DNA of 59,305 nt from Oscillospiraceae bacterium (lineage in GTDB: Bacteria > Bacillota > Clostridia > Oscillospirales > Ruminococcaceae): NCBI GenBank assembly GCA_017460835.1, contig JAFUAD010000053.1, forward strand, positions 1 to 59,305, read 5' to 3'. Positions 2,972-29,526 of the stretch are shown piece after piece; the stretch's first letter is position 1; every line of letters begins with the position of its first letter. A model generated the notes under the pieces. That model worked only from the letters and a program-made list of their open reading frames with translations, was not told the DNA's origin and made no database searches. The position numbers and the translations under genes were made by a program.

Positions 2972-4428
2972 CTCCCAAGCCTTGCTTTCAGATCAAGCAG
3001 AGCAAGCTGCTGTTGCAGGGTATTCAGGTCGGTTTTACTGTCGATCACCACAAGCTCGGTATCCGTGAGCTTTGCAAACAGCCGGATATCATCGGCATTG
3101 AGCGCAGTGGATACAACCGCGTGATGCGCACCGCCCGCGTAAATCCATGCGGCAGCACCGGTGCTGAAATCCGGCTTCAGCCTCCACATCAGCCGCGCAA
3201 CCGGGAGCTTCGGCATCGGTTCCGGCTGCCGGATCAGCTCAATTTCAGCGCAGATCAGACGGAATCGGTCGCCCAGATCCACCAGCGAGACCTGAATCCC
3301 CTGCCCCGAAATGCCGTCGAATACCAGACGGGCGGGATCCTCCCTGCCGCCGATGCTCAGCGGATGCACCTGAATTTCCGGCTTTCCTGCCGCGAATACC
3401 GGCGAGACCTCCAGCATATGCGATGCGAGCTCCAGCTCGCTGTCCTCGGTGAGGTCGTAGGTGTAGTCCTCCGTGAAGCCGGTTGCGCCCTGCCGGTGCT
3501 CCGCCAGCTTATTCAGCACTGCACAGAGCGCTGCGGTTTTATAGTCGCCCTCCGGCCCGAACCCGAAGCCCTTTGCCATGAGATTCTGTGCGGCGAGCCC
3601 GGGGAGCTGCTTCAGCCCGTAGAGATCCTGAAAGGTATCGGTAAATGCGTGAATCTGCTCCGATGCAAGGAACCGGTCAAGGGCGGCCTCCGTCGCGGCC
3701 TGCTCGCGGACAGCGGCGAGATTGTCCGTAGCCATTGTGTATTTCCCGGTATATTCTGCCATTTTTTCGTCAATTTCAGCATCGGAAAGCGCCGCCTTGA
3801 TCTCGGTAAGCGCGCCGATTCCGTAATAATTGACATTCCAGCCGAAATGAATCTCGCTCTCCACGCGGTCACCGTCGGTCACGGCAACATCGCGCATGTT
3901 GTTGCCGAACATGGCAACACGCAGTCCGCGGCTGTAATCTATCGCGGAACAGACCTCGGCAAAGCGCCGAAGCTGCGCGAGCGTTTTGCCGCTTTTGTAG
4001 TAGCCCGCGGCGATCTCGCGCTGAATGCCGAGGCGTGTGCAGATGAAGCCGAATTCCCGGTCTCCGTGCGCAGACTGATTCAGGTTCATAAAGTCCATGT
4101 CGATCGTATCATAGGGCAGCTTATCATGATACTGCGTATGCAGATGGAGCATGGGCTTCCGCAGCGATTTCAGCGCACTGATCCACATTTTTGCCGGCGA
4201 AAAGGTGTGCATCCACATGATGACACCGATGCAGTCGCGGTCGGCATTTGCCCCAGTGCAGACCGCCTCCGCCTCTGCATGTGTGGTGACGACCGGCTGC
4301 CACTCGACAGAACACGGGAGCTGTCCGCTGAGATATTCTGCGATCTCCTTCGCATCCGCAGCCGCCTGCCTGAGCGTCTCTGCGCCGTAGAGATCCTGAC
4401 TGCCTGTGATAAAGTAGAGTTTTTTCAT
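2968..4428 (-). CDS. araA: L-arabinose isomerase
   Basis: The 486-residue product begins MKKLYFITGSQDLYG, the canonical AraA N-terminus, preceded by AGGAGG seven bases before the ATG at 4428. It interconverts L-arabinose and L-ribulose in the cytoplasm. The metal and catalytic residues of the family are all in place: Glu in FGPEGDYKTAA, Glu in GFTEDYTYDL, His in ASHMLEVSP, and His in AGGAHHAVVS. Length matches the family (~490-500). The gene overlaps by four bases the start of a broken ribulokinase-like gene, so the pathway's second step is lost here unless a kinase is encoded elsewhere. It is driven by a clear promoter at 4463-4491 that has been duplicated upstream. Confidence 0.97.
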   Translation of the reverse strand: MKKLYFITGSQDLYGAETLRQAAADAKEIAEYLSGQLPCSVEWQPVVTTHAEAEAVCTGANADRDCIGVIMWMHTFSPAKMWISALKSLRKPMLHLHTQYHDKLPYDTIDMDFMNLNQSAHGDREFGFICTRLGIQREIAAGYYKSGKTLAQLRRFAEVCSAIDYSRGLRVAMFGNNMRDVAVTDGDRVESEIHFGWNVNYYGIGALTEIKAALSDAEIDEKMAEYTGKYTMATDNLAAVREQAATEAALDRFLASEQIHAFTDTFQDLYGLKQLPGLAAQNLMAKGFGFGPEGDYKTAALCAVLNKLAEHRQGATGFTEDYTYDLTEDSELELASHMLEVSPVFAAGKPEIQVHPLSIGGREDPARLVFDGISGQGIQVSLVDLGDRFRLICAEIELIRQPEPMPKLPVARLMWRLKPDFSTGAAAWIYAGGAHHAVVSTALNADDIRLFAKLTDTELVVIDSKTDLNTLQQQLALLDLKARLGR

Positions 4429-4462
4429 CGCATACCTCCTGTGAAATGAGCTTTGCAGTTTT

Positions 4463-4491
4463 ATTATAGCATATTTTCCTAAAAATCTCAA
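4463..4491 (-). promoter_or_regulatory. araA promoter
   Basis: On the minus strand TTGAGA (4486-4491) is followed by a 17-bp spacer and a perfect TATAAT (4463-4468), about 35 bp before the araA start. Confidence 0.8.
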
Positions 4492-4630
4492 TGGGATAGG
4501 GAGAAAAAATCATAAAAAGAGACTGCCCGGGTAAAAAAACGGAGGCGGCAGCTTGCCGCTTATAGCATATTTCCCTAAAAATCTCAATGGGATAGGGGGA
4601 AGCATGAAAAAGACCGCCCGGTCATCCCGA
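4464..4630. repeat. Tandem duplication of the araA promoter / upstream terminator segment
   Basis: The stretch at 4464-4500 recurs at 4560-4596 (offset 96 bp) with one mismatch, and similarity continues weakly into the A-rich, GCCCGG-containing sequence after each copy. Both copies keep the -35-like TTGAGA; the upstream copy has lost TATAAT and retains TATAAG. The simplest reading is a tandem duplication covering the araA promoter and the terminator of the gene upstream, with later decay of one terminator. Confidence 0.75.
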
Positions 4631-4640
4631 ACGGTCTTTG
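4607..4640 (-). terminator. Intrinsic terminator after the surface-protein remnant
   Basis: On the minus strand the hairpin AGACCG...CGGTCT with a GGGATGACC centre is followed by a run of T. It is almost the reverse complement of the terminator at 1775-1811, suggesting a dispersed terminator family. Confidence 0.75.
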
Positions 4641-4647
4641 CGTCATA

Positions 4648-5214
4648 TTATTTCCGTTTTCTACAGATGCAGCAGGAAGCCGCTGCGAGAAGCGCTGCCG
4701 CCGCAGCAGCAGGCAATGCTGCGCCGGGTCCGCGGTCACCCGTCGAGGGGCCGTTTGCCTGCGGATTGCCGCCCGAGGGCGCGGGATTCGTTCCCTTCAG
4801 GATCACGCGCGTTTCGATATGCTCGCCCTTGTTGCTGCACACGCGCTTTTCGAGTCCGTCCTCGGTCGCGGTCGCGGCCTTCACGACCGTCCATTCGAGC
4901 CACTTGTGCCCGAACGCATCGACCTCCTCATCGTAGGTCGCATCCTTGCTCTTGCAGGTATAGGTTCTCGTGCCCTCCTCCTCGCAGTCCGGGTCCTTCG
5001 TGATGACGCCGTCATCCCAGTTGTGGTCTGCGGTAATCACGCCGACGACTGCAAAGGAATTGCCGCGCTTGTTTACGGTCGCCGCGCTGCTGACCTTGCC
5101 GCCCTTTGTCGAGGGCTTTGGCTGCACAAGCGTCAGATAGCGCAGATCGCCGAGGCTGTCCGGTGCCGCCGGCAAAACACAGCCTATGGAAGCATCCGCT
5201 TGCAAATTGTCCAC
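4648..5214 (-). pseudogene. C-terminal remnant of a cell-surface protein with Cys-containing repeats and a membrane anchor
   Basis: The frame encodes two short repeats of a type common in Firmicutes surface proteins (HNWDDG...DCEEEGTRTYTCKSK and HKWLEW...CSNKGEHIETR), a Pro/Gly/Asn linker, and an Ala-rich hydrophobic segment ending CCICRKRK. That is a C-terminal membrane anchor with a stop-transfer tail. The N-terminus has no signal peptide. In another frame an ATG at 5233 encodes MKKSQKQWTICKRML before a stop, which looks like the beginning of a secreted protein. I read this as a gene that has lost its body and its frame. The alternative is a short intact protein starting at the GTG at 5214. 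I do not recognise a specific function. Confidence 0.5.
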
Positions 5215-5233
5215 TGTTTCTGTGATTTTTTCA

Positions 5234-5262
5234 TTGTGAATTCAAATTCTGTGCAGTATAAT
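5234..5262 (+). promoter_or_regulatory. Promoter of the GH2 beta-galactosidase
   Basis: TTGTGA (5234-5239), 17-bp spacer, TATAAT (5257-5262), then an ~80-base leader to the ATG at 5351. Confidence 0.7.
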
Positions 5263-5284
5263 GAAGATATACAATGGGGGATAA

Positions 5285-10318
<5,034 letters not shown>

Positions 10319-17722: not shown

Positions 17723-17754
17723 CCTCCCTCAAAAAACTAAATCAGCATAGCAAA

Positions 17755-17787
17755 ACCACCCGCTTTTTGAGCGGGTGGTTCCTTTTT
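17755..17787. terminator. Bidirectional terminator between the PBP operon and the ABC operon
   Basis: ACCACCCGCT (17755-17764) pairs perfectly with AGCGGGTGGT (17770-17779) around TTTTTG, then TCCTTTTTG. It serves the rightward PBP operon and the leftward transporter operon. Confidence 0.9.
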
Positions 17788-17795
17788 GTATTGCA

Positions 17796-18974
17796 TCAGC
17801 CGACCAGACCGGAGCGCTCAATGCCCTCTGTGAAGTGCTTTTGCAGGCACGCATACAGAATCAGCATCGGCGTAATCGAGATCAGGCAGGCAGCCTCAAA
17901 CCAGACAATTTTCTCGCGGGCGCTGATATTCGCATTTGCATTGTTGAAGATCGCGATATTCAGCAGGCCGTCGAGGTTCTTGAGCTGGAGAGAAATGGTT
18001 TTCTTGTTCGTGAAGAACGAGCTGGTGACGTAAAAATCATTCCAGTACCAGACGATCGAGAACAGGAACACCGTCAGGAACGAGGAGCCGGCATTCGGCA
18101 CCATGACCTTGACAAAGGTTTTGAACGGGCCGCAGCCGTCGAGATAGGCAGCGTCCTCAAGCTCCTTCGGCAGGCCGCGGAAGAACTGACGGAAAATAAA
18201 GATCATCAGTCCGGCGCGGATGCCGTTTGCCATCAGTGCAGGCAGGTACATGACCAGCATCTTGTCGATCAGATTCACCTGACCGAACAGGAAGAAGCGG
18301 AAGGTCATATACAGCGGAATCGAAATGATCTGCGTCGGCACGAGAATCATCAGAATGACGATGCCGAACAGCAGGTTTCTGCCCTTGAACTTGAACCGCG
18401 CAAAGCCGTAGCCGGTGATCGCGCAGGTGATGACCTGACAGAACGAGCAGCCGATATTCAGAACCAGCGTATTGACGAGCGGATTGTTTTCGCTTGCATT
18501 CAGGCTCATTGCATTGATCGTCTGCTTCATGATCTTCATCGTCAGATGACGCGGAATCCAGATGACCGTCGGGTCGTTCATATCCTGCCGCTCGCGGAAG
18601 CCGTAGCTCAGCATGAACAGCAGCGGGGTCAGAATGACAAATGCCAGACCGAACAGGATCAGGAAGCGGAAAACCGGCCATGTTTTCTCGAAAATGCGCT
18701 TTCTCCGCAGATAGGCGATCTCCGATTTGTTCATGTTCTTCATGCGGATCTTCATGGCTTCCTTTTTGGTCATGCCCTCGCCGACCACATGCTCCTCGAT
18801 GACATCCGGCTTTGCGGACTCCGGAATGTAGGACGCGACAGGATGATCGGGGTCGGATGCAGAGACACGCTCCGCTGCGATTTCCGCATCCACCGCATCG
18901 GAAATCTCGTTCACGATCTCGTCTGCGGTCTGGTTCTCCGGAACCTCAGGGGTTAGATTTTTTTCATTTTCCAT
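17796..18974 (-). CDS. Carbohydrate ABC transporter permease (MalG type), pair 2
   Basis: The 392-residue protein ends in a MalG-type permease domain with six predicted membrane segments. The EAA loop that docks the ATPase reads ELEDAAYLDGCGPFKTFVKV. It differs from ordinary permeases (~280 residues) by about 95 extra N-terminal cytoplasmic residues: an acidic part, then a basic MTKKEAMKIRMKNM stretch before the first membrane span. The ATG at 18974 is preferred over the GTG at 18983 because that GTG falls inside AAAGGGGGTG, the apparent ribosome site. It is the last gene of the eight-gene operon and pairs with the permease just upstream. No ATPase is encoded; an MsmX-like shared ATPase is expected elsewhere. 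Confidence 0.9.
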   Translation of the reverse strand: MENEKNLTPEVPENQTADEIVNEISDAVDAEIAAERVSASDPDHPVASYIPESAKPDVIEEHVVGEGMTKKEAMKIRMKNMNKSEIAYLRRKRIFEKTWPVFRFLILFGLAFVILTPLLFMLSYGFRERQDMNDPTVIWIPRHLTMKIMKQTINAMSLNASENNPLVNTLVLNIGCSFCQVITCAITGYGFARFKFKGRNLLFGIVILMILVPTQIISIPLYMTFRFFLFGQVNLIDKMLVMYLPALMANGIRAGLMIFIFRQFFRGLPKELEDAAYLDGCGPFKTFVKVMVPNAGSSFLTVFLFSIVWYWNDFYVTSSFFTNKKTISLQLKNLDGLLNIAIFNNANANISAREKIVWFEAACLISITPMLILYACLQKHFTEGIERSGLVG

Positions 18975-18988
18975 TCTCTGCACCCCCT

Positions 18989-19909
18989 TTAATCGACTTC
19001 ATAGAAGATGAATCGGTTGACGAACGCGACAATGATGCCGACAACCACCATGACAATTGCGAAATAGCTCCACGCCATTGCAGCGGCGTAAGCGTAGTTC
19101 CAGTCGGACTGCTTCTCCAGAACCAGACCCATGACGGCGTTATCGGTCTTGGTGAAGGAGTCGATGACCGTGTAGATGAAGTTTGCGAGGATCATCGGGC
19201 TGACATACGGCAGCGTGATCTTCCAGAAATACTCCCACGCGGTCGCGCCCTCCATCGAAGCCGCTTCCTTTGCGGAAACCGGGATGTTTTGCAGCGCCGC
19301 TAAGAAGATCAGAATCTGAATACCGGAGCTCCAGACCAACCCGAAGATGTTGGTCGTCACGGTATTGATGATCTCACTGAGATTGTCGCTGATGTTCATG
19401 ACGCCCAAGAATTCGAGCAGCTTATCGACCATGTCCGTCTCGAACAGCGTCGAGAACTGTGCGCCGCTGTCTGCGCCGGTGCTGGCGATGTTGCCGTTGA
19501 TGATGTTATAGACAGGGCCGGTTGCGATGATGACCGGCAGGAAGAAGATCGCACGCGCAAATCCCCTGCCCTTGAACTTCTGATTCAGAATGACCGCGAT
19601 AAACAGCGAGAAAATCAGAATCATCGGGGTCTGATAGAGCGTATCCTTCAGAACGGTCAGCAGATACTGCTTGAACTTCGGGTCAACGCGGAATGCGTAC
19701 TTGAAATTCGTGAGCCACTGGCCGTCCTTAAAGGGGAGCCATTCCTTGTTCATGCCGCCGACATTCGGCTTCAGCGTGTCATTGTTCATGAAGCAGTAGC
19801 AGAATGACTCAACGAGCGGGATCAGGAACCACAGAATGGTTCCGACCAGCCAGATCGAAATAAAGCCGTAGCCGTAGAGGGCTTTTCTTCGTTCATATGG
19901 AAGCTTCAT
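18989..19909 (-). CDS. Sugar ABC transporter permease (MalF type), pair 2
   Basis: The 306-residue product has six membrane spans and a MalF-type EAA loop (VSAKEAASMEGATAWEYFWKITLP). An unusually long periplasmic-side loop with Ser/Gly/Asp content (NIASTGADSGAQFSTLF... MNISDNLSE) lies between about residues 130 and 175. It begins with a four-base overlap on the DUF5696 gene stop, with GGTGG upstream. It forms the inner-membrane channel together with the permease at 17796-18974. Why an operon with one binding protein carries two permease pairs is not explained by the sequence. Confidence 0.9.
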   Translation of the reverse strand: MKLPYERRKALYGYGFISIWLVGTILWFLIPLVESFCYCFMNNDTLKPNVGGMNKEWLPFKDGQWLTNFKYAFRVDPKFKQYLLTVLKDTLYQTPMILIFSLFIAVILNQKFKGRGFARAIFFLPVIIATGPVYNIINGNIASTGADSGAQFSTLFETDMVDKLLEFLGVMNISDNLSEIINTVTTNIFGLVWSSGIQILIFLAALQNIPVSAKEAASMEGATAWEYFWKITLPYVSPMILANFIYTVIDSFTKTDNAVMGLVLEKQSDWNYAYAAAMAWSYFAIVMVVVGIIVAFVNRFIFYEVD

Positions 19910-22299
19910 TCAAATACCACCGCCCCTTCGTCTACATAATCCTTCAGGAATCTGGTCTGTCCGTTCATCTCAACGGAGCAGGCCCCCAGATCAACGACCG
20001 TCCTGACACCGTTGGCATACTCGGTCGTGATCACATCGCCGTCGCGGACATAGCTGATGATGTTGGAATTGCTGGTCGCGGAGAGAATGTCCTTCGTGAA
20101 GCTGTAATACTGCACCGCATTCTCCGTCCAGTAATCGTAATATGCATAATAGTACACATCAAAGTCGGTGTCCTTGAGCTCGCTGGTCTCGGCATAGATC
20201 ATATCGAAGCGCAGGTTGCTGCCGGCTGCCAGCGCCAGCATCACGAGCCGCTCAGCATCCGCGCTGCCGTTGACCGCCTTCGTCGAATACGGAATCACGC
20301 CGTGCATGACCATCTGGTACAGCGGGATATCGCCGTCGAAGATGTTGAAGCCGCTGGAATAGAGCGGAAGGTCTGTGATCGTTGTCGTGTACGGGAGCAC
20401 ATAGGCATTCGGGTCCTCAGAGAGAATGCTGCTGATATTCGCGCTGCGCAGCTCCTCAAGGCTCGTCTGAACCTTGCTGAGCGTCTGATCGCGGGAGGTC
20501 GAGGAGTTCTTGCCGTAGTCGCCGTAAAGCGTCGAGGAAAGCGCTCCGATGCTCGCACTCTTGAAGCCCGCCTTGCTGTAATTCTTCGCCATTTTTTTAT
20601 AGAGATCGGTAAAGGTTGACGGAGAAAGCAGCGACATCGTATCCTTTTCGCCGTATGGTACGCCGTAAGCGCGCTCATAGTCCACAATTCTCGCGAACGA
20701 GCCGGAGACGCGAACCGCCGTATCGGTCAGCGACCAGTAGCCCTGCCCGGAATAATATGCGGTGTTGCTGACCGTCGGATACCACTCGATCGAATGCTCA
20801 TTCATAAAGCTCTTAAGGCTGTTGAAATCCGATTTGCCGCCGAGCGTACCGGAGGGATCGGCCTTGTAGTCCACCTTTCCGCTGATGCCCGCATCGGTCC
20901 AGCGGTTCAGGGAGACGACCATCTGGTCGCCGCCCGCATCCATGACATTTTGCAGAATCTTCTTCATCTGCGAATAGGAGGTCATGCCGGTTTTCATAAA
21001 GACCGGGAAGCCGAGAATATTCTTCTGCTTCATGCAGCCGCCGTAGAGATCGAGATACAGCTTTGCCTCATTCTCCTTCGCGGTGACCTGCACCTTCTGG
21101 TCATCCAGCAGATACTGCCGGTAACGCGCCGCGATATCGACATAATCGAGCTCTGCGCCGTGATCGGCATTGATCTCATCGGAGCTGGCCAGCGGATAAT
21201 ACCGCACCTGAAGCTCGCGGTGAGAGAGATTTTTCTCGTAGACGTCCAGCGGATTGGTCTGGTCGCTGCCGAGGAAATACTGGTCGGAGCTGCGCAGCAG
21301 GAACTTGAAATAGCAGCGGTTATACTCGGTATTGGACTGGCCGGTTCCGCTGACATCCGCGCAGAGATAGCAGCTTCCGTCGCCCTTTGTCGCGACGCCG
21401 AGCAGCGCGTTCTCGCCCTTGACGATGCCGTACATCGGCAAAGACACGCCCTCGACCACAGCACCCTTTGTCTTCGGGACAGCGGTCGTATCCACATCGT
21501 AGATGAGCTGGCTGTATGTCTTTGCGGCATACTTCTCGTTATTGAAATTGATGATAGCGCCGCTGCCGTCCGGAATGACGAAGTAGCCCTCCTCCTCCGA
21601 ATCGGCTGCACCGAATGCATTGAGCACCGCAAGCGTATACGCCAGCACCGGGCTGTCGGATTTCGCGCCGTTCTTTTCCTTGATTTCCGTCGTGTCAATG
21701 CTGACCTGCAAATAATCCTTGCCGAGGGTATATTTCACCGGAACCGTAATGCCGATCTTCCGGAAATTGTAAGTCACCTTGATGCCGTCCGTGAGGTCGG
21801 AATAGGAAATTGTCGTTTTGCCGGTGTCGCCGGAACGGACATTCGTGGTCGAGCGCTCATTGATCTGCGCGGCGGTCATCACAAGACCGGAGCCCAGCTC
21901 ATTCTTCAGAACCGGCGCCGCGATCGTATCGCCGCCCGCATTGATCGGAGAGGTCCACCAGACATAGCCGTTTTTCTTGTTTTTCAGTGCGAAAACATCC
22001 TCCGGCTTCTCGTCGTTGTCCGTATCGACCTTATCCTCGTCCCATGCCCAGAATTCGAGATTGTCATTATCCGCGACCATTTTCATCTTCGCGAAGACCT
22101 CATCCTCTGTCCGGTTTTTCCATGCGTCCTCGTCGTCCTCTGCGGTATCGGAGGCATCTGCGTCTGCGGCAGCGGTATCTGCGGCCGGATCGGGCTCTGC
22201 GCTTGCCGGGAAGGAATATGCGGCAGTCGGCAGCACGAGCGCAGCAGCCAGGATACAGGTCAGAATGCGCTTTTTCTTATTGATTTTCTGCAACTTCAT
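19906..22299 (-). CDS. Secreted DUF5696 protein in an ABC transporter operon
   Basis: The 797-residue product has a signal peptide (MKLQKINKKKRILTC then a hydrophobic core to about residue 33) and an acidic Asp/Ala/Thr linker. A large beta-rich region follows (WWTSPINAGGDT, YSDLTDGIKVTYNF, VIPDGSGAIINF). The C-terminal half looks like a beta/alpha barrel (VVSLNRWTDAGISGKVDYK, MNEHSIEWYPTVSN, GFKSASIGALSS). I recognise it as DUF5696, known from paenibacilli and clostridia beside large solute-binding proteins. The barrel resembles distant glycoside hydrolases, but I see no certain catalytic pair; that is inference. The ATG at 22299 is chosen over the GTG one codon earlier. It overlaps the next permease gene by four bases. 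Confidence 0.8.
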   Translation of the reverse strand: MKLQKINKKKRILTCILAAALVLPTAAYSFPASAEPDPAADTAAADADASDTAEDDEDAWKNRTEDEVFAKMKMVADNDNLEFWAWDEDKVDTDNDEKPEDVFALKNKKNGYVWWTSPINAGGDTIAAPVLKNELGSGLVMTAAQINERSTTNVRSGDTGKTTISYSDLTDGIKVTYNFRKIGITVPVKYTLGKDYLQVSIDTTEIKEKNGAKSDSPVLAYTLAVLNAFGAADSEEEGYFVIPDGSGAIINFNNEKYAAKTYSQLIYDVDTTAVPKTKGAVVEGVSLPMYGIVKGENALLGVATKGDGSCYLCADVSGTGQSNTEYNRCYFKFLLRSSDQYFLGSDQTNPLDVYEKNLSHRELQVRYYPLASSDEINADHGAELDYVDIAARYRQYLLDDQKVQVTAKENEAKLYLDLYGGCMKQKNILGFPVFMKTGMTSYSQMKKILQNVMDAGGDQMVVSLNRWTDAGISGKVDYKADPSGTLGGKSDFNSLKSFMNEHSIEWYPTVSNTAYYSGQGYWSLTDTAVRVSGSFARIVDYERAYGVPYGEKDTMSLLSPSTFTDLYKKMAKNYSKAGFKSASIGALSSTLYGDYGKNSSTSRDQTLSKVQTSLEELRSANISSILSEDPNAYVLPYTTTITDLPLYSSGFNIFDGDIPLYQMVMHGVIPYSTKAVNGSADAERLVMLALAAGSNLRFDMIYAETSELKDTDFDVYYYAYYDYWTENAVQYYSFTKDILSATSNSNIISYVRDGDVITTEYANGVRTVVDLGACSVEMNGQTRFLKDYVDEGAVVFE

Positions 22300-22306
22300 C
22301 ACCGCC

Positions 22307-22936
22307 TTATACTCTGATCCGATACAGAATTTCTGTATACAGTGAATAGAAGAAAACGTAGACCTTCTGGAACAGGCTGAGGAACAGCACCGCGAGGAAC
22401 AGGATCACGAGCATTGCGAACAATGTCAGGATGATCGCCGCGACGGTCTTTGTGAAGGTGTACTGATGCACCGATTTGATTGCCGAGAACAGCAGGATCG
22501 CGGACCAGATCAGACCGATGTAATACACCGTCGAGAAGAACACCTGCTCATCGCGCACCAGAATGTGCGAAAGGAACACATTGATAAAGGTCGAAACGAT
22601 GTACGGAATCAATGCATACGAGCTGTAAATGCAGATGTTTTTCATTGTGCCCTCGCCGTCGAGGAGCGTACAGATCGCCCAGTTTCCGAGCACCCACGCG
22701 AGGAAATAGACCACGCTTTTCATGATGTACGGCATGACGCTGAACATCGCATCGGGCAGCGGGCGGAACTGGAATCCGCACCAGCGGTCGTCGGCGATCA
22801 TCGCAACGAACAGTGCCGCGATGATGATTGCCGTATATTTCAGCGTGCCGCCTTTTTTCCAGCGCAGATCCTCAAAGCCCTCAAAGGGGTGAAACACAAC
22901 ATGCTTTACCCACTGGGGCTGTGTCAAATCCATCAT
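22307..22936 (-). CDS. Yip1-family integral membrane protein
   Basis: The 209-residue protein has an N-terminal cytoplasmic HPFEGFEDLRWKKGG segment typical of bacterial Yip1-domain proteins. About five membrane spans follow (IIIAALFVAMIA, SVVYFLAWVLGNWAICTLL, ALIPYIVSTFINVFL, YYIGLIWSAILLF, AIILTLFAMLVILFLAVLFL). Start ATG at 22936 follows GGAGGTG. In this operon it sits between the NHL/TPR protein and the DUF5696 protein with gaps under 20 bases. Its role is unknown; the context suggests a membrane scaffold for the transporter assembly. Confidence 0.8.
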   Translation of the reverse strand: MMDLTQPQWVKHVVFHPFEGFEDLRWKKGGTLKYTAIIIAALFVAMIADDRWCGFQFRPLPDAMFSVMPYIMKSVVYFLAWVLGNWAICTLLDGEGTMKNICIYSSYALIPYIVSTFINVFLSHILVRDEQVFFSTVYYIGLIWSAILLFSAIKSVHQYTFTKTVAAIILTLFAMLVILFLAVLFLSLFQKVYVFFYSLYTEILYRIRV

Positions 22937-22952
22937 ACTCGCCGCACCTCCT

Positions 22953-24488
22953 TTACGAGCCGGAACCGGAGCTTGCCGTATCCGCCGGTTTTTTGCGCTT
23001 ATTCTTCAGCACCCGCTTCAGCACCTTGATCCCGACGATCAGCACGACCGCAATAATCAGAATCGCGGTAAGATGCTGCCGGAGCCACTGCGAGCGGTAG
23101 CGCTCAAAGGCCTTGTTGTATCTTGCGGAGGCATCCGCCTTCTTCGCATACTCCATAGACTCCTTGTATCTGCCCATGTTATAGTACGCGCTCGAAATGC
23201 CGAGGTACGCGCGGCGGTAGTTGCCGTCCCGCTTCAGAACCTCCAGCCACGGATCCAGTGCTTCCTCATAGTAGCCGCCGTTATAGAGCGTGGTTGCGTG
23301 ATGCACGATCTGGCCGAACACGGTCTGGCCGAACACGGTCACGCTGCCCTTGCCGGCATCGAGCACATAGATATTCTCGCAGTTTTCGCCCTTTGTCTCG
23401 ATCGCCGCGACATTGCCCGCGGTAAACGAACCGACCTGATCGCCGGTCGCACCCATGATAAAGAGCAGATCCGCTTCCTTATCGTACTGGAACACGCGGC
23501 CTGTCGTGGAGTCGAGGCAGTTGATCGAGCCGTCGTCGCCGATGTCAATATCGACGATCTTGGTCTTGTAGGAGGTACCGGAGTACCATGTCGAGAACAG
23601 GTCGCCCCATGTGAAATTCGACATGTAATCGAACAGATTGTAGCCCTCCGGGTTGACCTTCTTCACGATATCGGTATCGGTGCTGCCCGATGAGGTCGAG
23701 GTATAGATAAAGCCCTTGACCGTGTCGATATCGAAATTATCGAATGCCGTCGGTGTGCTTCTGGAGCGGTAGCGCTTTTCGTCCTCGGAGGCGATCGCAT
23801 TCCAGAAGTGGTTTGCGATGACCTCTGCGGTCGGTGCGACGCTGTTCGCGCCGTAGTAGCCTATGAATTCGCCGCTTGCATCGAACATTGCAGCACCCTT
23901 TGTGGTGTTATTCAGCACGATGTAGACATTGCCCGCGTTGTCGCAGAGGATCTTCTGCGGCAGGAAGGTAAGCTGCTGATCGTAGACAGTCGAGGTCGGC
24001 TTTGTGATCTCCTTCTCGACGGTTCCGTCCGGATTGACGATCAGCGCACGGGAATTCTCGTTATCGGCAATATACATCAGCCCGGTATCCGGGGAGACAT
24101 ACACGCCCTTCGGGTTCTTCATCGTGGTTTCGGAGCCGTCCGGCATGGTGAAGGAGGTATATTCCTGCACGATTTCCGTGAATTCGGAGTCGATCTTCAG
24201 AATCCGGTTATTGCCCGAATCCACCAGATAGAAGAAATCCTCGCTGTCCTTGAAGAGATCCGCCGGAGCATTCAGCGCCGTAGTACCGAGATCGAGTCCC
24301 GAAACGGAGCGCTCCGCCAGATAGCCCGCCTGCGAGGGCACCGCCTCGCCGAGGTAGTTGTAGTTATAAACATCATACGGTTCATCCGCCGCTGCCGGAG
24401 CAGACATGGAGGAGAACACCAGCAGACACACGATACCGGCTGCTGCGCAGTGCTGCTTTCTATAACTGCGCTTGTTTTTCTTTTTCAC
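22953..24488 (-). CDS. Secreted NHL-repeat / TPR protein with C-terminal membrane anchor
   Basis: The 511-residue product starts at GTG 24488 after GGTGAGGT. It has a signal peptide ending near AAADEP, then a six-bladed NHL-type beta-propeller (LFKDSEDFFYLVDSGNNRILKI, GVYVSPDTGLMYIADNENSRA). A run of TPR-like helices follows (ALDPWLEVLKRDGNYRRAYLGI, YYNMGRYKESMEYAKKA), then a transmembrane helix (about 465-485) and a basic tail. The propeller therefore faces outward and the tail inward. The doubled VFGQTVFGQ at about residue 395 reflects a 15-bp tandem duplication (about 23307-23340). Likely a sensor or scaffold for the adjacent transporter; no ligand can be named. Confidence 0.8.
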   Translation of the reverse strand: MKKKNKRSYRKQHCAAAGIVCLLVFSSMSAPAAADEPYDVYNYNYLGEAVPSQAGYLAERSVSGLDLGTTALNAPADLFKDSEDFFYLVDSGNNRILKIDSEFTEIVQEYTSFTMPDGSETTMKNPKGVYVSPDTGLMYIADNENSRALIVNPDGTVEKEITKPTSTVYDQQLTFLPQKILCDNAGNVYIVLNNTTKGAAMFDASGEFIGYYGANSVAPTAEVIANHFWNAIASEDEKRYRSRSTPTAFDNFDIDTVKGFIYTSTSSGSTDTDIVKKVNPEGYNLFDYMSNFTWGDLFSTWYSGTSYKTKIVDIDIGDDGSINCLDSTTGRVFQYDKEADLLFIMGATGDQVGSFTAGNVAAIETKGENCENIYVLDAGKGSVTVFGQTVFGQIVHHATTLYNGGYYEEALDPWLEVLKRDGNYRRAYLGISSAYYNMGRYKESMEYAKKADASARYNKAFERYRSQWLRQHLTAILIIAVVLIVGIKVLKRVLKNKRKKPADTASSGSGS

Positions 24489-24529
24489 GAGTTACCTCAC
24501 CCTTTCTGTGAATATTTGCCGGTATGTGC

Positions 24530-25453
24530 TTAATCCTTGATACCGGAATGCGCCATGGTCTCCATAACCTGGCTCTGCGCCATGATGAAGAAGAGAACCG
24601 GCGGCACAAAGAGGATGACAGCAGCCGCCATCGTGACGCCCTGACGGGAGATACCCGCGGAGGCAGCCTGCTGAATGACCGTCGGGAGCGTTTTCAGCGA
24701 TTCGTCATACACGACGCTTCCGCCGGTGATATTCCATGCGCCCTGGAAGGCGAAGATCGCCATTGTCATCAGCGCCGGCTTCTGGTTCGGGATGACGATG
24801 CGCCAGCAGATCGTAAACAGGCTTGCGCCGTCAACCTTCGCCGCCTCGATCATCGCATCCGGAACCGTGGACATGCTCTGACGCATCAGGAACAGACCCA
24901 TCGTCGATGCAACAGAAGGCAGGATCAGCGCAGACATGCGGTTGATCATATTCAGCTCTGCCATGACCATGTACTGCATCAGATAGATAACATTGCTGTT
25001 ATAGAGCAGCGCGAGCACGATAATGCCGTTGATGAGCTTGTTGCCGGGGAATTTGATCTTCGCGAGGCAGAATGCCGCCATCGAAGCAAACACGCACTGC
25101 AAAACCGTAACGGCGATCGTGACGAAGGCACTGTTGAATACATAGCGGGAGAACGGCACCCACATCTGTCCGAGCACGCGGTAGGTATCGCGGAAGTTGT
25201 CGAAGGTCGGGTTCAGCGTATACCACTTCGGCGGGAAGATGAACATTTCGTTGACCGGCTTGATCGAGTTCACGACCATCAGCCAGATCGGAAGCACCAT
25301 AAACAGTCCGAGAATTGTCAGAAAGAGGAAGATCGCGATGGTGCCGCCGATTTTTCTGCCGGCTCGCTTATTCGATGCCTTCAGCTTTTTCGGATCCGTC
25401 ACCGGCTTTTTCTTGCGCTTGACTTTCGCCGGCTTTGTTTCAGCTTTACTCAT
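24530..25453 (-). CDS. Carbohydrate ABC transporter permease (MalG type), pair 1
   Basis: The 307-residue product has a basic N-terminus (KAETKPAKVKRKKKP), six membrane spans and a clear EAA loop (VPDAMIEAAKVDGASLFTICWRIVIP). It starts at ATG 25453 after GGAGGGAGG, 16 bases after the partner permease stops. Together with 25469-26419 it forms the permease pair adjacent to the solute-binding protein. Confidence 0.92.
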   Translation of the reverse strand: MSKAETKPAKVKRKKKPVTDPKKLKASNKRAGRKIGGTIAIFLFLTILGLFMVLPIWLMVVNSIKPVNEMFIFPPKWYTLNPTFDNFRDTYRVLGQMWVPFSRYVFNSAFVTIAVTVLQCVFASMAAFCLAKIKFPGNKLINGIIVLALLYNSNVIYLMQYMVMAELNMINRMSALILPSVASTMGLFLMRQSMSTVPDAMIEAAKVDGASLFTICWRIVIPNQKPALMTMAIFAFQGAWNITGGSVVYDESLKTLPTVIQQAASAGISRQGVTMAAAVILFVPPVLFFIMAQSQVMETMAHSGIKD

Positions 25454-25468
25454 TGTCTGCCTCCCTCC

Positions 25469-26419
25469 TTATTCCATGTATTTTCCGAGAATCCTGCTGA
25501 TGAGCTTATTGCAGACATACATCGCAATGAACAGCACCATACAGATCGCGGAGGCATAGCCCATTTCGTAGCGCACCCAGCCGTAGTCGAAGGCGTGGGT
25601 CATGATCGTATGCGCGGCGTAATCCGTGCTGGGGAAGCCGACGAGGTTTCGTGCGACGATATCCGCCGTAAACGCGGAGACGATCTGCATGACCGCGGCG
25701 AACATCAGCGACGGTCCCATGCCGGGGATCGTGATGTATATGAGCTCCTGCCAGCGGTTCTTGATGCCCTCGATCGCGCCCGCCTCATACTGGCTCTTGT
25801 CGATATTCTGGAAGCCGGCGCGCATCGCGAGGAAGCCCGCGCCCATGCTGACCCAGAGCTGTACGATGATGACGACGGTCAGGATGTATTTCGAGTCCGT
25901 CAGCCATTGAATCGCGGAGGTGGAAACGCCGAGGTTCATCAGCGTCGAGTTCGCGATGCCGTAGCTGTCGCCGGAGAAGATGAGCTGCCAGACGGCGTAC
26001 ACGCCGGACGCCATCGACGGCGCATAGAAGATCAGCGTGAAGATGACCTTCAGGGTCTGGTTGAGCTCGTTGATCAGCCATGCGAGCAAAAAGCTCAGCA
26101 GATAGCTCAACGGGCCCGTGAACACAGCAAACACCAGCGTCACGCGGATCGCCTTGATGAAAATGCTGTCGTTGAGGAACAAATTATAGAAGTTGCTGAG
26201 CCCGACCCATGTCGGGGGATACTGCACCATGTCGAAATCCGTCAGACCGATCGGGAGTGACATGATGACCGGGATGACCGTAAACACTATAAAGATCAGC
26301 ATAAACGGGAGCAGCATCAGGTATGCTTCCTTGTTCTGCTTCATCTGAAGCCAGACAAGACGCCGCTTCTCTTTTTTCGTTCGGACGCCGATCTGATCCT
26401 TATCCAAGACCTTATCCAA
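25469..26419 (-). CDS. Sugar ABC transporter permease (MalF type), pair 1
   Basis: The 316-residue product begins MDKVLDKDQIG from a TTG codon at 26419, preceded by AAGGAGGG. It has six membrane spans and an EAA loop (YEAGAIEGIKNRWQELIYITIPGM). It lies 26 bases downstream of the solute-binding protein gene, so the three genes form a standard carbohydrate uptake set (CUT1 type) minus the ATPase. Confidence 0.92.
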   Translation of the reverse strand: MDKVLDKDQIGVRTKKEKRRLVWLQMKQNKEAYLMLLPFMLIFIVFTVIPVIMSLPIGLTDFDMVQYPPTWVGLSNFYNLFLNDSIFIKAIRVTLVFAVFTGPLSYLLSFLLAWLINELNQTLKVIFTLIFYAPSMASGVYAVWQLIFSGDSYGIANSTLMNLGVSTSAIQWLTDSKYILTVVIIVQLWVSMGAGFLAMRAGFQNIDKSQYEAGAIEGIKNRWQELIYITIPGMGPSLMFAAVMQIVSAFTADIVARNLVGFPSTDYAAHTIMTHAFDYGWVRYEMGYASAICMVLFIAMYVCNKLISRILGKYME

Positions 26420-26445
26420 AGCGGGAACCCTCCTTTTCCGGCCGC

Positions 26446-29370
26446 TTATTTCAGACCGAGATTTTCACGTTTTCTCTGAATCTCATCGTTCATGTCGCTG
26501 TTATAATACATCAGAGTATCACGCGGGTTTTCGTTTGCATTGACGGTTTCACGGAATGCGTTCATGATATTACGGGTAACGGCATAGGACGAGGGCAGAA
26601 TCGGGATTTCGCTGAGCGATTCCCACTGCGCCTTCAGCACATCGAGCTCTGCCGCCGACCAGTTGAGCTGCTGCAAAGCCTCGATGTTCGATGCCTCATA
26701 GCGTCCCATCTGTCCGAGCAGACCCTCGAGGTTCTGGCCGTACTCGGTCTGCACATCCGTCGAGCAGAACCACTTGACGAATTCCCATGCAGCCTCCTTG
26801 TTCTTCACCTTCTTGAAGATGACCGCGCCGGAGCCGCCGGAATTCGATGCATGATTGATCGTGCCGTCCTCGCCAAGCGTTCCCGGCATGACCGTGAAGT
26901 CCCAGAGTCCCTTGATCTCCGGTGCCGCAACGGAAAGCTGATTGTAGAAGCTGTAGTTTGCGATCACGACCGGATACTGTCCGGTGCGGAAATAGCTGTA
27001 TGCGTCATAGGTCTGTGCGAATTTGTAATCCTTGTAGAAATCCGTCCACTTCTCAAAGCACTGAATTGCGGTAACGGAATCGAACAGCGTCTTTGTCTGC
27101 TCCTCATTATAATAGTTCATATCGTGCTGGAGGATCAGCGAGGCGAAAGTGTGACCCGCTTCGGTTGCCGCCGCAACATTCGTCGAGGGCAGGATCAGGC
27201 CGACGCCGAGGTGGTTCCGCTGGAGACCCGGCAGCATGTCGATGATGCCGTCCCACGTTCGCGGCAGCTCGGTAAACCCGAGCTCCGTCAGGATATCCGT
27301 CCGGTAGAACATCATCGTCCAGTTCTGCGTCAGCGGCATGCCGTATACCCCGTTGTTATAGGAATACTGCACCGTCGCGTCGTGCTGATACGGCTGCACG
27401 ACCTGATCAAAGTCGGAGAACTGCTTCATATCGACGAGCAGCCCGCGGCATGCGAGGTTCACGGGGAATTCGCCGCCGAGGAAAAGTGCAACGTCCGGCC
27501 CCTTGCCGGCGAGCGTCGCTTCAACAACACCGCCGACCACGAGGTTGACGGAAACCGGAATCTCCGGATGAACCTGCGAAAATTCGTTTTCCACAAGCTC
27601 CTTGACGACGAGCGCCTGATCTCTGCCGAGGTTGACCCAGACATTGATGACGTCATCCTTGCTTGCATCGACATCCGAAAGCGTGGTGTAATCCTCGGTA
27701 AAGGAGCCGATGAACGCCTTGAAGCGGAATGCAAACTGCTTGAAGAAGCTCGAATCCAGCGAGGTAAAGCTCTTGTCCGCCGATGCGAGCTCGATATAGT
27801 CGATCTCAAGCGGCTGATCGCGGTAGTCGCAGATGAACGTGGAAATTGTGGAGATGTTGTCCTTGATCTGCGTGACATAATTCGGAATACGGCTGGGCTT
27901 CGCGACGCACTTGTCGAGAATGACGTACATTCTCTGGAGTGCCGCCGCCTCAGAGCCGAGCGAACCCGAGAGCTTTTCGATGCCGTTCTGCGCATCCTTC
28001 AGCTCCTGAGAGAGACGCTTGAAATCGTCAAGGATCGTCGGGACGCTCTCCTGCACATAATAGTCATTGTATTTGTCCGGATTCGGGCCGGTGATCATCA
28101 GAATCTGCTTGTAGCAGGTGTTGAGGTCCGCGACCACGCTTTCGAGCCTGCGCATCGTATCGCCGATCTCGCCGGGCATTGCCTCCAGCGTCAGCGTATG
28201 CGGCTCGCCCGCCTTCAGGTAGACATATGCGGCATTGCCGTCCGAGGCCTTGACCGTCGTCAGGCTCCAGTCGGTGTCATAGTAGAATTTCACCTGACTG
28301 AACGCATCGTTTTGCAGTTCGCCGTCCACCAGTACGCGGCGGTTGGAGTAGAAGCCGCGCATGACATCCTGACGCGCCTTGATGCCGATTTTATACCAGC
28401 CGTCGCCCTGAAGGGCATCCGCCGGAATTTCCCATGTAATCGTCTGCCCTGCCTGATCCCAGTTCGCGCCGCCGATCGTGTTATAGACCATCTTCACGGG
28501 GTCGGAGGGCGAAACAGTGTAGGAATTGTTGTCATAGCCCGGATACAGGGTAGATGAGGATTTGAATGCAGCGGCCTCGCCCTCCATGCGGTACAGGGTC
28601 GAGGGGGTCGCGTTCAGCGCTGCCTGATCGGGCGCCTGATACGGAGAGGTGCCCTCCGGCTGGCAGAACCGGATATAGTCAATACCGAGATTCGCCTTGA
28701 TGCCGGTCAGCGTCAGCGTATGCGAGCCCGCCGTCAGGTAGAGGATCAGCGGGTCATTGAACAGCCCGTCGCTGTCGTAGATGAACTTTGTCTGCCATGC
28801 AGGCTGCTCGATCTGCGAGGGACGCACCTGATTGCCGCGCGAATCCGTCTTGATCTCCGTCTTATTGACGAAAATCTTGTTGAGCGTGATCCGCGAGGCG
28901 GATTCATAGGGCGTCTCGCCGTCAAGCTGCATGGAGAGCTCCACCTGATTCGATGCGGATTTCATCGCGTAATAGGCGATCTGCACCGAATAGATGCCCT
29001 CCTCCGGCACAGTGAAGTCAAACGAGACCTCACCCTCCGGCGCATCCCAGATCAGAACCTGATCGCGCTTGTCGCTGCCCTCGCCGAGAGAGCCGACGGA
29101 AAGCGCATCCCCGCCGCCCTTGAAATCCTTTCCGCTGATGCGGATTTCCTGCTCCGGGCGGTTTTTTGTGCTGTAGGTATCATAATAGTCGCTGTAGCTG
29201 TTTTCGCGTTCAAAGTGCAGCTCATAGAGTGCATCGTCCGAATCCGCCGCAGAGAGCGTCATCAGATCGGCTTCCTCCGCACTGCACACAAGCGGGACCG
29301 AGATGCCGCAGGTCATTACGGCACTGAGCATCGCCGCAGACACGCGCCATGCAAACTTCTTTTTTCTCAC
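26446..29370 (-). CDS. Large extracellular solute-binding protein with N-terminal carbohydrate-binding-like domains
   Basis: The 974-residue product starts at GTG 29370 after GGAGGTACC. Residues 1-33 form a signal peptide; no convincing lipobox precedes a Cys (PLVCS and MTCGI do not fit), which is odd for a Gram-positive binding protein. Two beta-sandwich, CBM35/galactose-binding-like domains follow at about 48-235 (FERENSYSDYYDTY... GIDYIRF) and 260-400 (YRMEGEAAAF... VYLKAGEPHTLTLEA). Next is a helical spacer of about 130 residues. From about residue 573 comes a type 1 solute-binding domain (INVWVNLGRDQAL, GKGPDVALFLGGE, GMPLTQNWTMMFYRTDIL). Ordinary sugar-binding proteins are about 430 residues. 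It is first in the operon behind a strong promoter. Substrate probably a carbohydrate; identity not deducible. Confidence 0.88.
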   Translation of the reverse strand: MRKKKFAWRVSAAMLSAVMTCGISVPLVCSAEEADLMTLSAADSDDALYELHFERENSYSDYYDTYSTKNRPEQEIRISGKDFKGGGDALSVGSLGEGSDKRDQVLIWDAPEGEVSFDFTVPEEGIYSVQIAYYAMKSASNQVELSMQLDGETPYESASRITLNKIFVNKTEIKTDSRGNQVRPSQIEQPAWQTKFIYDSDGLFNDPLILYLTAGSHTLTLTGIKANLGIDYIRFCQPEGTSPYQAPDQAALNATPSTLYRMEGEAAAFKSSSTLYPGYDNNSYTVSPSDPVKMVYNTIGGANWDQAGQTITWEIPADALQGDGWYKIGIKARQDVMRGFYSNRRVLVDGELQNDAFSQVKFYYDTDWSLTTVKASDGNAAYVYLKAGEPHTLTLEAMPGEIGDTMRRLESVVADLNTCYKQILMITGPNPDKYNDYYVQESVPTILDDFKRLSQELKDAQNGIEKLSGSLGSEAAALQRMYVILDKCVAKPSRIPNYVTQIKDNISTISTFICDYRDQPLEIDYIELASADKSFTSLDSSFFKQFAFRFKAFIGSFTEDYTTLSDVDASKDDVINVWVNLGRDQALVVKELVENEFSQVHPEIPVSVNLVVGGVVEATLAGKGPDVALFLGGEFPVNLACRGLLVDMKQFSDFDQVVQPYQHDATVQYSYNNGVYGMPLTQNWTMMFYRTDILTELGFTELPRTWDGIIDMLPGLQRNHLGVGLILPSTNVAAATEAGHTFASLILQHDMNYYNEEQTKTLFDSVTAIQCFEKWTDFYKDYKFAQTYDAYSYFRTGQYPVVIANYSFYNQLSVAAPEIKGLWDFTVMPGTLGEDGTINHASNSGGSGAVIFKKVKNKEAAWEFVKWFCSTDVQTEYGQNLEGLLGQMGRYEASNIEALQQLNWSAAELDVLKAQWESLSEIPILPSSYAVTRNIMNAFRETVNANENPRDTLMYYNSDMNDEIQRKRENLGLK

Positions 29371-29497: not shown

Positions 29498-29526
29498 ATT
29501 ATACCAAATCTTGCGAAACTTGTCAA
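29498..29526 (-). promoter_or_regulatory. Promoter of the eight-gene ABC/DUF5696 operon
   Basis: Minus strand TTGACA (29521-29526), 17-bp spacer, TATAAT (29498-29503): a consensus promoter with a ~125-nt leader to the GTG at 29370. No catabolite-repression operator was recognised with certainty. Confidence 0.85.

Follow-up and report, generated by a model that had tools for sequence, protein, structure and literature searches.

A conserved DUF5696 operon of the Bacillota carries two separable permease blocks and may be served by separately encoded binding proteins

An ATP-binding cassette (ABC) importer comprises two transmembrane domains and two ATPases, and the locus described here raises the question of how an operon encoding four importer permeases, one solute-binding protein (SBP) and no ATPase could be organised. 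The locus lies on contig JAFUAD010000053.1 of an Oscillospiraceae bacterium; positions 1 to 59,305 of it are referred to as the window. The closest named matches were to Ruminococcus and other Oscillospiraceae, mostly metagenome-assembled genomes, several of them from animal gut. We give an even chance to the reading that the operon encodes two CUT1 importers side by side, sharing an MsmK-like ATPase, with a family of small SBPs feeding the second importer and the DUF5696 protein presenting glycan.

The operon consists of eight minus-strand open reading frames (ORFs) between 29370 and 17796, in which neighbouring genes are never more than 41 nt apart and one pair overlaps by 4 nt. In this order they encode a giant SBP of 974 amino acids (26446–29370; SBP_bac_1 at residues 590–874), the UgpA-like permease 1 (25469–26419), the UgpE-like permease 2 (24530–25453), an NHL propeller and TPR protein (22953–24488), a Yip1 membrane protein (22307–22936; 58.9 bits), a secreted DUF5696 protein (19906–22299, or 22302; 493 bits), permease 3 (18989–19909) and permease 4 (17796–18980, its start codon being uncertain, at 18983 or inside). 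The intergenic distances derived from these coordinates were 26, 15, 41, 16 and 4–7 nt, the 4-nt overlap and 5–8 nt. Pfam assigned all four permeases to BPD_transp_1 and found no match to any ABC ATPase family among the eight proteins. An earlier note, made from the letters of this DNA alone, had described eight leftward genes of this composition without an ATPase, and all of this was confirmed, with the TPR matches falling below the cut-off. Within each pair the two BPD_transp_1 permeases are unlike and carry EAA loops; together with a family-1 SBP, this is the composition of a CUT1 importer.

The neighbourhood of DUF5696 was compared across 131 loci (129 after removal of identical DUF5696 C-termini), many of which stop at contig ends; three loci with weak DUF5696 matches (L079–L081) were excluded before counting. 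NHL adjoined DUF5696 in 121/121 testable loci, as did Yip1, and the two were fused in 44 of these 121. On the 3′ side, permease 4 was present in 119/119 loci and permease 3 in 118/119, the sole miss (L070) being an over-extended ORF. The linkage of DUF5696, NHL and Yip1 to permeases recurs across the Bacillota loci compared, so that the first condition named by the earlier note as refuting its reading, a lack of such linkage, did not hold; nor did the second, a DUF5696 structure without a barrel. Permease 2, the end of the first block, lay directly upstream of NHL in 99 of the 120 loci with enough sequence and did not in 21; this count replaces a first one of 78/81, which omitted most loci without the upstream block as less sequence had been fetched. 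The gene order of the window is the common one. In six loci (L058, L066–L068, L078 and L085) the second block, made up of NHL-Yip1, DUF5696 and permeases 3 and 4, was placed before the first. The second block occurred alone in 14 loci on contigs without a full-length giant-SBP match, although the contigs are in part short and weak matches of 24–38 bits occur on two of them, in one case to the small SBP. Among 14 further giant-SBP loci, three (L172, L175 and L182) carried the first block alone. Because each block also occurs without the other, the four permeases are two separable pairs and not one obligate assembly.

This bears on the suggestion of the earlier note that the second pair forms either a distinct channel or part of a larger assembly, of which the former agrees with the separable pairs and the latter was rejected. 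A single hetero-assembly of four permeases, with two pathways or one wide channel, would fit their co-encoding in the common order, but the blocks occur separately and each of the four window permeases has an EAA-like loop, so that we regard it as very improbable. Across homologues of permeases 1 to 4, respectively, the loop was found with a relaxed pattern in 103/104, 100/101, 98/126 and 123/123 sequences, and with a stricter pattern in 8/70, 67/70, 51/70 and 66/70. Two kinds of interruption were observed among the loci: two extra secreted proteins were inserted between permeases 3 and 4 in L126, L144 and L148, and in L063 permease 2 was split by a 442-aa opposite-strand ORF (4384–5712), possibly a transposase.

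In a sample of 398 genomes from the phylum, 39 had a DUF5696 match over the cut-off. In the genus of the window the core was found in 22/25 genomes, the three misses being 58–76% complete, and its copy number was nearly always one; only one genome (G409) showed a second, partial match.

Comparison of the loci also revealed a second SBP of approximately 450 aa, which adjoins the operon in most other Bacillota loci. In many Paenibacillus its gene lies upstream of that of the giant SBP, and in other loci it is found downstream of permease 4; Paenibacillus operons that carry it include those of P. pabuli, P. amylolyticus and P. barcinonensis. A small SBP on the same strand was present in 72/99 distinct loci that do not belong to the window's group and in none of the 30 that do (L069 and L090–L118); restricting the count to loci whose core is flanked by 2 kb or more on each side gave 46/56 and 0/16. 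It adjoined 11 of the 14 loci with block two alone, compared with 0/3 with block one alone. Its best solved relative was an arabino-oligosaccharide-binding protein (E 4e-47), and 43/83 operon-linked small SBPs had a lipobox-like pattern. The single binding protein of the earlier note thus holds for the operon itself, but the system as a whole probably has more than one, the second SBP family being encoded beside or outside the operon.

The genome of the window encodes two such small SBPs as orphans, on contigs C5 and C78, neither of which gave a match to the permease family PF00528; a third match (C19, 20.5 bits) and a fragment (L224) were excluded from the counts. Members of the family were matched in all 30 genus genomes searched, 29 of them at 169 bits or more, and no core-type permease was found near the orphans in 29 genus loci, within up to 1.5 kb on each side. 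In a tree, the two own orphans and eight others from the genus grouped with 11 operon-linked small SBPs in a starred set, and the giant-SBP domains were placed apart from the small SBPs, as they also were in a second tree from which 8 rows, mostly long branches, had been removed. In two genomes of a sister order, G437 and G431, a single operon is accompanied by 17 and 30 small-SBP matches, respectively, some of which are fragments. The stretches fetched from them held 40 small-SBP genes of at least 100 bits (16 and 24), 33 of the 40 with a lipobox-like pattern, and none of the 40 had a core-type permease within 5 kb, the search covering the orphan surroundings only. Genomic linkage, co-occurrence and kinship suggest that several SBPs may deliver to one permease pair.

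A rival explanation is that the giant SBP alone serves both permease pairs and that the orphan small SBPs are parts of other transporters or have a sugar-sensing role. In its favour is the lack of an adjacent small SBP throughout the window's group, and a number of further observations weigh against small SBPs as receptors of the second importer. The small SBP was not adjacent in 27/99 of the other loci, a figure that becomes 10/56 for those with 2 kb of sequence on each side. The orphans of G437 and G431 branch as a separate clade next to the operon-linked SBPs, so that kinship is their only tie to the operon, and their neighbours are mixed and mostly not carbohydrate-active enzymes (CAZymes). 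Among 45 orphan neighbours scanned (42 of 56 for these two genomes and three of the own orphans), two were pectate-lyase-like and four were GFO/IDH/MocA proteins, the only GH10 lying beside an orphan of the window's genome. That genome also holds other CUT1-type pairs, and one of these, on C6 (L195:6895–12177), has no visible adjacent SBP, lies beside a dockerin-bearing PL11 rhamnogalacturonan lyase and could be the partner of the orphans. Conversely, the small SBP adjoins most of the block-two-alone loci, on contigs that carry no full-length giant SBP, and block one is also found without block two. Small-SBP presence moreover tracks DUF5696 across 28 genomes of the same class: matches of at least 130 bits were found in 8/10 DUF5696-positive and 0/18 DUF5696-negative genomes (Fisher p 1.4e-5), although this line was set after the scores had been seen, G439 (DUF5696 at 51.8 bits) was counted as negative and the positive genomes G438 and G270 lacked a strong small SBP. 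On balance we consider it quite unlikely that the giant SBP serves both pairs alone. Two further permease pairs of the genome, on G000:C25 and G000:C62, had identical scores and are possibly an assembly duplicate.

An ATPase for the importers was sought elsewhere in the genome, which is 88% complete. One MsmK/UgpC-like protein scored over the curated cut-off (480.6 bits; cut-off 432) and is encoded on another contig (G000:C68). In the accessible parts of published work, an MsmK/MsmX ATPase is shared with CUT1 importers in Anaerocellum (Caldicellulosiruptor) bescii, Bacillus subtilis and Streptococcus pneumoniae (PMC8579813, PMC12096829). The window operon resembles these systems in having an SBP and two unlike permeases, no ATPase of its own and one shared-type ATPase gene in the genome. 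It differs from them, as far as they are described in those parts, in its two permease pairs, its 974-aa multi-domain SBP and its NHL/TPR-Yip1-DUF5696 module. In the flanks of L090–L118, 12/80 proteins were ABC ATPases and 3/80 were ABC-2 membrane proteins, which are probably exporters.

The DUF5696 protein was found to have three domains, a beta-sandwich, a TIM barrel and a C-terminal beta-domain, and it matched the GH129-type structures 5opq and 5wzn (ZgGH129-like glycosidases) over its whole length; the barrel-like half foreseen by the earlier note is therefore real and of GH129 type. With hhalign, only the C-terminal domain aligned with a GH129 protein. PF11308, which covers GH129 relatives, matched 0/299 genomes in a search that gave no match anywhere, and 2/9 in one family; NCBIfam held no model for DUF5696 or Yip1. 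Unlike the GH129 glycosidases, DUF5696 is encoded within a transporter operon and does not conserve the catalytic acids on its barrel strands. The Asp common to NagBb and ZgGH129, according to the accessible parts of PMC5698469, maps to DUF5696 position 584–586. The 132 sequences, that of the window included, were thinned to 114 at 80% identity; in their alignment, an acid was present at position 584 in 1/114 sequences and at 586 in 56/114, and acids at both canonical positions, 586 and 643, were found in only 18/114, with no tendency to co-occur (odds 0.41). The window protein has Ala at the nucleophile position (A586).

These residues make doubtful the glycan processing that had been proposed for DUF5696, and we think it unlikely that the protein is an active surface glycoside hydrolase trimming glycan before import. 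Some room for that alternative is left by the mapping, which relied on model strands and MAFFT and is uncertain by a few residues, and by D594 and D655, which are conserved and through which catalysis may be possible. DUF5696 is a GH129-fold barrel whose most likely role at the membrane is to hold or present glycan chains and not to cut them. The three weak matches to its profile noted above (24–35 bits; G302, L079; G007, L081; G325, L080) were two DUF6259 proteins and one GH129-family protein, and from sequence the DUF5696, DUF6259 and GH129 families may form one barrel superfamily. The neighbouring NHL protein has an N-terminal signal and a C-terminal transmembrane segment at 467–496.

The giant SBP begins with a signal or transmembrane segment, followed by approximately 550 aa and then the SBP domain. 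Profile searches matched 5x7g at residues 303–401, a stretch which we take to be CBM35-like, and 5ysb at 565–878. Among its homologues, 95/104 had an N-terminal transmembrane or signal segment and 9/104 a lipobox pattern. Upstream of its gene, the single consensus promoter claimed by the earlier note was found at 29526–29498 on the minus strand (TTGACA-17-TATAAT with TG before the -10), matching the consensus at 12/12 positions. Promoter-type sites in a plain scan showed no excess (9 observed, 9.1 in shuffles), but this element aligned upstream of the same gene in 14/14 relatives compared, with TTGACA in all 14 and TATAAT in 12 or TATACT in two. The operon is closed by a terminator-like, bidirectional hairpin at 17754–17780 with 12 pairs followed by T-runs, which agrees with the terminator expected near 17755, such hairpins likewise showing no excess (15 in the region, 12.2 in shuffles).

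Flanking genes gave hints to substrates; the proteins submitted to Pfam were selections (98/194, 87/154 and 80/112). Beyond Ruminococcus, CAZyme genes are frequent neighbours of the operon: one set contained GH32 (14/98), GH43 (8/98) and GH26 (6/98), and a second, of 87 proteins, contained GH106, GH42, fucosidase and GH28, among others. In the window's group the flanks were mostly unrelated (GH26 4/80, GH95 2/80). As the CAZyme neighbours vary, the substrate probably differs between loci. On C78, a GH10-CBM9-CBM9-dockerin-GH43-CBM6 protein (L192:4667–10220) is encoded 157 bp upstream of the orphan small SBP on the same strand and is likely a cellulosomal xylanase with its own receptor. This GH10/GH43 neighbour and the arabino-oligosaccharide-binding match point to (arabino)xylo-oligosaccharides as a candidate ligand of the C78 orphan. 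In 18/25 genus loci (L196–L223), the gene after the C5-type orphan encodes a BspA-like LRR protein.

In the two-importer reading, extracellular enzymes would release oligosaccharides, the giant SBP would deliver these to permeases 1 and 2, and small SBPs, linked or orphan, would deliver to permeases 3 and 4. The NHL/TPR protein joined to Yip1, together with DUF5696, would form a surface scaffold with permeases 3 and 4, and the MsmK-like ATPase of the genome would power both importers. In the lineage of the window, where the small SBPs are encoded elsewhere, one core would then serve several interchangeable receptors. A tentative extension, which we hold at somewhat less than an even chance, is a hub-and-spoke arrangement in which one double CUT1 core, equipped with a pseudo-glycosidase of GH129 fold and an NHL/TPR-Yip1 membrane scaffold, docks orphan lipoprotein receptors from across the genome (two in the window's genome, 16 and 24 in the sister-order genomes), the receptors being gained and lost with their own enzyme clusters and the core remaining single-copy. 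The capture-process-import machine imagined by the earlier note thus survives as a conserved unit, in many copies outside Ruminococcus CAZyme-linked, and with a barrel, but its processing step is doubtful and the second SBP family had been missed.

Some parts of this arrangement have precedents. In the accessible parts of PMC12838199, the cello-oligosaccharide CUT1 importer of A. bescii uses two SBPs, and Cbc is cited as an ABC importer that recruits several; both resemble the present system in having several SBPs per permease core. What sets the present system apart from them, as they are described there, is its dispersed orphan SBPs, 16 in one genome and 24 in another, and their tie to a double CUT1 operon, for which the link is genomic only. 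DUF5696 was not mentioned in the literature searched, in which Yip1, NHL, 'ABC transporter permease' and 'solute-binding protein' never occurred together. In the accessible parts of the Caldicellulosiruptor and Ruminococcus albus papers (including PMC8579813), locus tags and names could not be tied to the operon, and those of a paper on Paenibacillus FPU-7 SBPs contained no mention of such an operon. The gene set for two side-by-side importers is widely conserved, and the supply of one of them by separately encoded receptors, which related genomes suggest, appears to be undescribed. As far as the literature searches show, the novelty lies in the size of the orphan set and in the combination of a double operon with an accessory module; the shared MsmK and the two-SBP CUT1 importer are known.

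If the two-importer reading is true, it would open to direct experiment the question of which transporter the orphan SBPs use, since a genome of the genus seldom holds more than one copy of the core. It would provide a function and partners for DUF5696 and for the Yip1 and NHL proteins of the Bacillota and would explain SBPs without an adjacent permease. It would also mean that importer counts made from linked SBP-permease sets miss part of what gut Ruminococcus and related bacteria can take up.

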